Origin: Leucobacter zeae | GTDB lineage: Bacteria; Actinomycetota; Actinomycetes; Actinomycetales; Microbacteriaceae | Direction: 5' to 3' | Assembly (NCBI RefSeq): GCF_016758175.1 | Contig: NZ_QYAB01000001.1 | Coordinates: 1,509,162-1,573,161 of the forward strand | DNA length: 64,000 nucleotides | Shown here: positions 37,048-38,809 of the stretch, in pieces | Numbering within the stretch: position 1 is the stretch's first letter | How the letters are laid out: the number at the start of each line of letters is the position of its first letter | Made by a program: the position numbers and the translations under genes | Notes under the pieces: model-generated | The model's input: only the letters and a program-made list of their open reading frames with translations | What the model was told of the DNA's origin: nothing | Databases searched by the model: none

Positions 37048-37716
37048 GTGAGCGTTGACGATCTCTCGCCGAGCATGCAGAACTACCTCAAGGTCATCTG
37101 GGGGCTGCAGGAGTGGTCCGACGCACCCGTTTCGAACTCGGCGATCGCCGAGGCCGCCGGTGTCCGGCTGTCGACGGTCTCGGACGCCCTGCGCAAGCTC
37201 GCGGACCAGGAGCTCATCGGCCACGCGCCCTACGGTGCCGTGACGCTGACCGAGCTCGGGCACGAGCACGCGGTCTCAATGATCCGCAGGCACCGGCTCA
37301 TCGAGACCTTCCTGGTGCAGCTGCTCGGATACGAGTGGGACGAGGTGCACGACGAGGCCGACCGGCTCGAGCACGCCGTCTCGGACGAGCTCATCAACCG
37401 CGTCGATCGAGCGCTCGGCTACCCCACGCGCGACCCGCACGGCGATCCGATCCCGAGCGCGGACGGCAGGATCCACCGGCCCGACGCCGTCGTGCTCGCC
37501 GAGGCCGCAGGCCCGGGACGGGTGCGCGTCGAGCGCATCTCGGATGCCGACAACGGCATGCTGCAGTACTTCGCGAGCCGCGGGCTCGTGGTGGACGCCG
37601 AGATCGAGCTGCTGCCGAGCGAACCCTACGCCGAGACCGTGACGGTGCGGGTCGGGGCCGAGACCATCGGGCTCGGCCCCGCCGCCGCAGCGTCGGTGTG
37701 GGTGTCGAGGAGATAG
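37048..37716 (+). CDS. DtxR-family metal-dependent regulator (MntR/IdeR-like)
   Basis: A 222-residue metalloregulator. The N-terminal winged helix (NYLKVIWGLQEWSDAPVSNSAIAEAAGVRLSTVSDALRKL) is followed by a dimerisation/metal domain with HRLIETFLVQLLGYEWDEVHDEADRLEHAVSD and GRIHRPDA. A C-terminal FeoA/SH3-like domain completes it (about 150-222). It would repress metal uptake when bound to Mn(II) or Fe(II). No transporter is adjacent. TAGGCT (37036-37041) lies six bases before the GTG, a textbook leaderless start. Confidence 0.9.
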   Translation: MSVDDLSPSMQNYLKVIWGLQEWSDAPVSNSAIAEAAGVRLSTVSDALRKLADQELIGHAPYGAVTLTELGHEHAVSMIRRHRLIETFLVQLLGYEWDEVHDEADRLEHAVSDELINRVDRALGYPTRDPHGDPIPSADGRIHRPDAVVLAEAAGPGRVRVERISDADNGMLQYFASRGLVVDAEIELLPSEPYAETVTVRVGAETIGLGPAAAASVWVSRR

Positions 37717-37825: not shown

Positions 37826-38215
37826 CTATGCGGCGGGCTTCGCGGGGTCCTTCGCGAACTTGAGGCCGATCACGCATCCGATGATCCCGGCGATGAAGAG
37901 CAGCTTGAGCGGCGATACGGACTCGCTGCCCAGCAGCATCGAGGCGACGACGGTGAGGGCGGCCCCGAGCCCGGTCCAGATCGCGTAGGCGACGCTGATC
38001 GGCAGCCCGCGCATCGCGTAGCCGAGACCGATCATGCTCAACGGGCACGCGACCGCGAAGACGAGGGTCGGCACCAGCCGCGTGAATCCCTCCGAATCGT
38101 GCATCGCGATCGCCCAGACCGCTTCGAGCACCGCGCTCGCGAACAGCACGACCCAGTGCGCGGGACGCGCGATCTTGGCTTCGCGGCTCTGCGCCGCGGG
38201 GAGTGCGCGAACCAT
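37826..38215 (-). CDS. SMR-family exporter, second subunit (guanidinium-type pair)
   Basis: A 129-residue four-helix small multidrug resistance protein. Helix 1 holds the essential glutamate in SAVLEAVWAIAM, and GLPISVAYAIWTGLGAALT is the Gdx/SugE-like helix 3 motif. It has about 20 extra N-terminal residues compared with its partner. Its ATG lies 1 base beyond the stop of the first SMR gene, so they are co-translated and likely form a heterodimer like YkkC/YkkD. The upstream riboswitch implies export of guanidinium. Confidence 0.9.
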   Translation of the reverse strand: MVRALPAAQSREAKIARPAHWVVLFASAVLEAVWAIAMHDSEGFTRLVPTLVFAVACPLSMIGLGYAMRGLPISVAYAIWTGLGAALTVVASMLLGSESVSPLKLLFIAGIIGCVIGLKFAKDPAKPAA

Positions 38216-38216
38216 C

Positions 38217-38537
38217 TCAGCTCACCGCCTTGAGCCCGACGACGCAGGCTATCAGCCCGAGCAGCAGTACCACCTTGATCACGGACGCCCGCTCCTGCCG
38301 GGTGATCATCGCCCAGGCCGCCGTGAGCACGGCCCCGATCCCGACCCACACGGCGTACGCGGTGCCCACGGGGATCGCGGACATCGCGTAGGCGAGCCCG
38401 ACCATGCTGGCGACGAGCGCGCCGAAGAAGACCAGTGTGGGGCGGAGGCGCTTGAACCCCCGCGAGGCGTCGAGGGCCGTGGCCCAGACCGCCTCGAGCA
38501 TTCCGCTCAGAATCAACACGACCCATGCCCATGACAT
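38217..38537 (-). CDS. SMR-family exporter, first subunit (guanidinium-type pair)
   Basis: A 106-residue four-helix SMR protein, the standard family length. The essential glutamate is Glu14 in LSGMLEAVWATAL, and IPVGTAYAVWVGIGAVL matches the Gdx (SugE) signature. The start ATG at 38537 has GAGAGG seven bases upstream; an earlier frame reaching 38690 runs through the riboswitch and is not coding. Translation is probably controlled by that guanidine-III aptamer, whose pseudoknot ends next to the GAGAGG. Confidence 0.92.
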   Translation of the reverse strand: MSWAWVVLILSGMLEAVWATALDASRGFKRLRPTLVFFGALVASMVGLAYAMSAIPVGTAYAVWVGIGAVLTAAWAMITRQERASVIKVVLLLGLIACVVGLKAVS

Positions 38538-38550
38538 GGCGCGACCTCTC

Positions 38551-38592
38551 TGGCAGTCGTCAGTGTGCGGGTACTGCTCCCTCGTCCGCACC
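38551..38592 (-). ncRNA. Guanidine-III (ykkC-III) riboswitch
   Basis: On the minus strand upstream of the SMR pair lies GTGCGGACGAGG, then GAGCAG, TACCCGCAC, and GACGACTGCC. Stem P1 is GUGCGG (38586-38591) with CCGCAC. A pseudoknot forms between GCAG (complement of 38574-38577) and CTGC (complement of 38553-38556). The ACGAGG, GUACC and GAC-purine-A elements match the known Thermobifida fusca guanidine-III aptamer. The 3' strand ends one or two bases before the GAGAGG ribosome-binding site, so guanidinium binding should alter translation. Confidence 0.85.
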
Positions 38593-38809
38593 CCGGTCGC
38601 GGGGTCTGCCTCAAGTGTCGCACACCTCGACGGACTCCGTGCCCAGGAGCTGCACAGGGTACGCGCGGTGCCGATCGGGGGCGCCGCCACCCCGGATCCG
38701 ACGGGGTTCCAGCGCGTCGGATGAGAAACTCACCGCTCGGCATGCTCCATGGGGGATAATCGGAGATGCGCCGGTTCGGCGCAGACGACGGGGGATCGAG
38801 AGGAGCGCG

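Follow-up and report, generated by a model that had tools for sequence, protein, structure and literature searches.

In Leucobacter zeae, the mRNA of a two-gene operon for a guanidinium exporter very probably begins with a guanidine-III-type riboswitch of a short-bridge form. This reading comes from comparative sequence analysis of a 64,000-nucleotide stretch of DNA, referred to here as the window, and of related loci in other genomes; by analogy with its class, the window RNA is a candidate for guanidinium binding. The RNA class and its association with exporter genes are already known; the short-bridge variant, seemingly undescribed as far as the literature we found goes, and a lead to a second carrier family are new. 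The features of the locus, read 5' to 3' on the minus strand, are as follows.

38640..38657, minus strand: direct repeat CTGTGCA-N4-CTGGGCA with an 11-bp period, a possible promoter-level protein site.
38614..38622, minus strand: extended -10-like element TGCGACACT, with transcription predicted to begin just ahead of P0.
38590..38605, minus strand: hairpin P0, 6 bp (strands 38605-38600 and 38595-38590), from RNAfold at each locus and the Rfam model alignment.
38550..38589, minus strand: guanidine-III aptamer core, short-bridge form, an H-type pseudoknot, from RF01763 and an independent short-form model.
38586..38589, minus strand: P1 5' strand GCGG, partner of 38567-38570.
38582..38585, minus strand: ACGA core, corresponding to A5, C6, G7 and A8 in T. 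fusca numbering, from sequence and alignments.
38573..38577, minus strand: P2 5' strand GCAGU, including the ligand-contacting G17, partner of 38553-38557.
38574-38570, minus strand: GUACC block, from sequence.
38571..38572, minus strand: A19-C20, invariant; the bridge G (38561) is the expected partner of C20.
38567..38570, minus strand: P1 3' strand CCGC, partner of 38586-38589.
38558..38561, minus strand: shortened bridge GACG (family consensus GACAAG), from the scoring of 121 loci.
38561-38557, minus strand: GACGA block, from sequence.
38553..38557, minus strand: P2 3' strand ACUGC, partner of 38573-38577.
38545..38550, minus strand: Shine-Dalgarno-like GAGAGG, 7 nt 5' of the ATG, from sequence.
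38217..38537, minus strand: SMR subunit A, 106 aa, Gdx/SugE-like, ATG at 38537, from PF00893, the SugE model and the Gdx-Clo match.
37826..38215, minus strand: SMR subunit B, 129 aa, starting 1 nt past the stop codon of A, from the same three sources.

A gene for an MntR/DtxR-type metal regulator with a FeoA domain (37048-37716, plus strand) lies convergent with the SMR operon.

A scan of the whole window against Rfam at gathering scores gave no matches. In a local scan at E<=10, RF01763 was the sole family matched (27.5 bits, E 3.4e-4, span 38549-38609), and the window copy falls short of its gathering cut-off of 36 bits; the covariance search by which the preliminary description had proposed to check its guanidine-III assignment thus returns the expected family at a sub-threshold score. 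Across the 3.47-Mb genome, the window copy ranks first among 20 RF01763 matches at E<=10 (E 0.00125), the runner-up scoring 21.2 bits (E 0.05). An independent model, built from 22 short-form loci of other genomes with the window copy excluded, scores 70.2 bits on the window copy (E 4.6e-16, a rough value), and the next best match in the window reaches 20.7 bits. The class assignment is further borne out by the presence of the motif in 39/39 Gdx-type loci of the genus and in 71/80 relatives, and the three sequence blocks on which it had been based are readable on the minus strand as ACGA, GUACC and GACGA. The stems required revision. Four base pairs of the proposed 6-bp P1 are conserved; the two outer bases (38591-38590) also close P0, and relatives with C replacing U at the outer P1 positions lose the U-A pair that would lengthen P1. 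P2, described as a 4-bp pseudoknot, comprises 5 bp (GCAGU/ACUGC), and the two-base shortening of the bridge had been missed. The gap between P2 and the Shine-Dalgarno sequence of the Gdx-like pair is 2 nt, and this placement in the 5' UTR of exporter genes fits the class.

We considered whether the segment is instead a chance match, coding sequence or a DNA operator, a reading to which the frame of gene A, open upstream to 38690, lends some substance. The linker of the short form, however, is 8, 9 or 10 nt long among relatives, and such single-base steps break any reading frame, so that the segment is not coding; together with the score of the independent model, this leaves such an origin with practically no likelihood.

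The distribution of the short bridge was determined in two samples. The relatives sample consists of the best 80 of 547 confirmed candidates for gene A in named genomes. The genus sample consists of 54 genomes, 45 of which have an SMR match at E<=0.001 and 39 a Gdx-type match (E<=5.3e-33), weaker SMR matches being excluded. With two other family members, these gave 121 strictly scored loci (80 named, 39 genus, 2 other), of which 80 are canonical, 28 short, 4 other bridge variants and 9 without an aptamer; two Leucobacter genomes are counted twice among the short loci (L100=L009, L102=L010), leaving 26 distinct. The 39 genus aptamers divide into 23 short and 16 canonical. The four short loci of the named set are the two Leucobacter duplicates and two from Agromyces, and one more (L164), from another family member, precedes an SMR gene. 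In the window, GACG connects P1 with P2 where the conserved G29-A30-C31-A32-A33-G34 is expected, and the Rfam alignment matches the consensus GACAAGAC with GAC--GAC; because its bridge is two bases short, we file the window RNA as a variant rather than a plain member of RF01763. The P1-to-P2 linker is 11 nt in 67/80 canonical and 9 nt in 21/28 short loci, a difference of two bases. Further bridge variants (CGCAAAG, CGAAAAG and GACACG) were seen in Bifidobacterium cuniculi (L067), Rhodococcus (L031 and L036) and L033.

In a genus-wide scan run with stricter filters, the RF01763 cut-off was passed by 10/54 genomes, all of them canonical (10/16 canonical, 0/23 short). The two-base deletion is therefore a likely cause of the low Rfam scores, if not the only one, since the canonical locus G047 also scores only 27.5 bits. 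Most members in Leucobacter, where 39/54 genomes have an aptamer before a Gdx-type gene, thus escape a curated model whose cut-off is fixed.

The short form extends to Agromyces and is also found ahead of genes of a family other than SMR. In a tree built from 116 A proteins of the SMR family, the Leucobacter pair clade is set apart from the Agromyces single genes (95/90). The tree also places the canonical loci L106, L107 and L113 among short-form loci, in a topology with few columns and many open forks that gives no reliable number of bridge-form changes. A short-form pattern search of 398 Microbacteriaceae genomes gave matches in at least 110; most look coding by eye, one stretch being repeated in dozens of genomes. 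Among 20 hand-picked candidates, 15 precede CBU_0592-type genes and two precede SMR genes (L163, canonical; L164, short), and L170, L173 and L177 were dropped as not aptamer-like. A literature search brought up nothing on guanidine-III RNAs whose bridge is shortened, a weak indication that no such variant is in print.

The loss of two conserved bases and the low Rfam score are what would be expected of a decayed, non-functional guanidine-III relic. Against decay stands the pattern of conservation. Over the 23 short-form genus loci, mean pairwise identity is 92% in the 40-nt core; in gene A it is 59% at third codon positions, and over the 40 nt preceding the core it is 48%. In an alignment of 22 short loci, 32/41 columns are invariant. 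P1 and all five P2 pairs are standard in 28/28 short-form loci, with not one broken pair, and we regard a relic as highly improbable. The ACGA block and the ligand-contact bases C6, G7 and G17 are invariant in the short-form alignments, as is A19-C20, and C20 faces the bridge G as a C-G pair in 23/23 short rows.

Evidence from compensatory change is more limited within the short form. P1 is paired in 23/23 genus short rows with no variation in its GCGG strand, while several pair types occur family-wide. At one P2 pair both bases differ in 6/23 short rows (U-G for A-U), a cell count reached by 0/500 shuffles; the number of pairs so altered (1) was equalled by 454/500 shuffles. The other short-form pairs are invariant in the genus and hence uninformative, so that covariation inside the short form concerns one pair and perhaps few events. 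Canonical loci show several pair types at P1 positions 1-24 and 2-23 and at P2 positions 16-37, 15-38 and 14-39, and positions 1-24, 15-38 and 14-39 include some non-standard cells; all five P2 pairs form in 69/80 of them and four in the remaining 11.

The guanidine-III RNA of T. fusca (ykkC-III, RF01763, 5NWQ) provides a structural reference. As described in PMC5696562, its ligand stacks on C6 and bonds to the sugar of this residue as well as to G7 and G17; C20 is the partner of G29, and A30, C31, A32 and A33 lie in a stack running into P2. The window RNA resembles it in its H-type pseudoknot, its ACGA and GUACC blocks, its ligand-contact bases, the possible G29-C20 pair and its site before SMR genes. 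Unlike the 5NWQ RNA, it has GACG for GACAAG, with A32 and A33 absent on the most natural alignment, and it scores below the Rfam cut-off. PMC5696562 gives the core bases between P1 and P2 as each >97% conserved, and by our reading the missing A32 and A33 fall within this core. On the model of the crystal structure, guanidinium would be held by G7, G17 and C6 between P1 and P2, locking the pseudoknot. The shortened bridge would be tolerated because G29-C20 and A35-U18 flank only A19 on the facing strand, so that three bases could still cross.

A core altered at conserved positions and fixed in many species might also signal an altered ligand preference, e.g. for substituted guanidines, and there is precedent in variants of guanidine-I and, on the evidence reported, guanidine-IV (PMC9788692). 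We think this unlikely, since the contact bases C6, G7 and G17 are unchanged, the downstream genes are the same as those of the canonical form, including its members within Leucobacter, and the substrate-site residues of the SMR proteins are likewise unchanged. For an aptamer of 40 nt with a known structure, this natural two-base deletion would allow a clean distinction between core contacts that ligand binding requires and those that it does not.

The paired Gdx-like exporter proposed in the preliminary description is upheld by several lines of evidence. Both proteins exceed the PF00893 cut-off of 23.7 bits (A, 72.4 bits, 4.5e-20; B, 74.2 bits, 1.2e-20), and the NCBIfam SugE model is the best-scoring family for each (A, 90.4 bits; B, 85.9 bits). 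As both fall under its equivalog cut-off of 126, we call them Gdx-like rather than SugE equivalogs. A search of the genome with A as query matched no SMR protein other than these two at E<=0.001. Among solved structures, the closest to both in sequence is Gdx-Clo, the SMR protein of 6wk5/6wk9 (A, E 8.4e-19; B, E 3.6e-18). Like Gdx-Clo, A and B keep the equivalents of E13, W16, S42, Y59, W62 and K101 and the GXG motif, which include the residues holding the central glutamates in Gdx (PMC9574504). The E13/W16/S42/Y59/W62 equivalents are kept in 39/39 A and 29/29 B proteins of the genus. Unlike Gdx-Clo, a dual-topology homodimer, the exporter here is encoded by a gene pair, as are about 20% of Gdx proteins according to PMC9574504. 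The two genes lie 1 nt apart, and their products have opposite Arg/Lys biases (A, -5; B, +7; approximate loop limits), as expected for an antiparallel heterodimer. Opposite bias is found in 29/29 paired genus loci (A, -2 to -6; B, +3 to +12; same approximate limits); the bias in 10 single-gene genus loci is +1, and an apparent B at the single-gene loci L119-L125, which is gene A matched a second time, is excluded from these counts. All 23 short-form genus loci are paired, as are 6 of the 16 canonical ones. The two SMR proteins would enter the membrane with opposite topologies, and a single guanidinium pump of the Gdx type, an antiparallel heterodimer of the two, is the most likely product.

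The mechanism by which ligand binding affects expression is less clear-cut. As inferred from the class, exporter levels would rise as guanidinium accumulates, making this an ON switch. The preliminary description had the switch act on translation, on the ground that the pseudoknot abuts the GAGAGG site. In a purely translational mechanism, the ligand would free the ribosome site; the 2 nt between the end of P2 and the Shine-Dalgarno sequence accord with this, and such a mechanism has been proposed for the class (PMC12186494). No conserved sequestration of the ribosome site was found, however, in P0-Shine-Dalgarno duplexes or in folds of the 23 short and 14/16 canonical genus loci. Pairing of the P0 loop with the ribosome site was rejected as a general mechanism: in the window the two are complementary at 7/7 positions with a best own duplex of -18 kcal/mol, yet the average over 23 loci is -11.3 kcal/mol for own duplexes and -11.5 kcal/mol when P0 and ribosome site come from different loci (p 0.63 by permutation). 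Sequestration by the aptamer was likewise not seen in accessibility folds, in which the change runs counter to release: on blocking the aptamer, the predicted unpaired value of the Shine-Dalgarno sequence went from 0.57 to 0.49 in 23 short loci (p 0.08), and from 0.64 to 0.46 in 14/16 canonical genus loci (p 0.017; L108 and L127 excluded as near-copies), these folds being blind to the pseudoknot itself. PMC12186494, citing Richards and Belasco 2021, also reports that RNAs of this class can protect the mRNA against scanning by RNase E. We therefore find an exclusively translational mechanism doubtful; mRNA protection fits the anatomy no worse than translation control and is at least as likely. 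A locked 5' structure would make the mRNA longer-lived, better translated or both.

The upstream DNA suggests further control. A -10-like TGNNANA(C/A)T lies within 110 nt upstream at 23/23 short and 3/16 canonical genus loci; with such an element just upstream, the transcript would begin with P0, followed by the pseudoknot. The exact repeat pattern CTGKGCANNNNCTGKGCA has a single occurrence in the 3.47-Mb genome, at 38640-38657. A looser direct repeat is present upstream of 12/23 short-form genus operons, and reversed copies precede 4/16 canonical loci and 1 short locus. These repeats suggest a site for an additional DNA-level regulator, possibly of OmpR type, a guess from the 11-bp period. 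In Curtobacterium, six loci (L015, L016, L020, L025, L026, L032) have Gdx-type genes that are preceded by inverted repeats, GTCGCACAGTCGTGCGAC being one example, and by no riboswitch, and there a protein regulator may stand in for the guanidine-III RNA.

In other Microbacteriaceae, guanidine-III aptamers, several of the short form, lie directly before genes for ~85-aa membrane proteins of the CBU_0592 family (L158-L162, L165-L169, L171, L172, L174-L176, L203, L207). These aptamer-linked proteins share a motif resembling LLLEGVWAIVS; its Glu is replaced by Asn in 12/12 readable members without an aptamer in the sample. A Gdx SMR is present in 0/10 genomes of aptamer-linked CBU_0592 loci, compared with 74/140 in the sample. 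Their aptamers are distinctive in P2, with at least one non-standard pair in 15/17: 15-38 is C.A, G.G or A.A in 13, and 14-39 is A.C in 2. A non-standard 15-38 occurs in 2/80 canonical and 0/28 short SMR-linked aptamers. At L195 (G189), a degenerate guanidine-III motif, with GGTCGAG and GTATGCC for GGACGAG and GTACCC, precedes a Glu-type CBU_0592 gene and is possibly a further core variant or a relic. A profile search of solved structures with a CBU_0592 alignment gave no match at E<=10, a Pfam search with one protein of this family gave no match, and a literature search for CBU_0592 found no papers. The Glu-type proteins are perhaps SemiSWEET-like, and the aptamer-linked ones are a possible new guanidinium carrier.

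We tentatively propose, as somewhat short of an even chance, that the short-bridge RNAs are a recurrent natural subclass with a rebuilt core, with origins in Leucobacter, in Agromyces and ahead of a non-SMR gene at the least, and that the class also marks a second, hitherto unrecognised carrier, the Glu-type CBU_0592 proteins, which would stand in for Gdx elsewhere in the Microbacteriaceae. This second lead may matter more than the short-bridge variant itself. Following the RNA yields a directly testable candidate carrier family.
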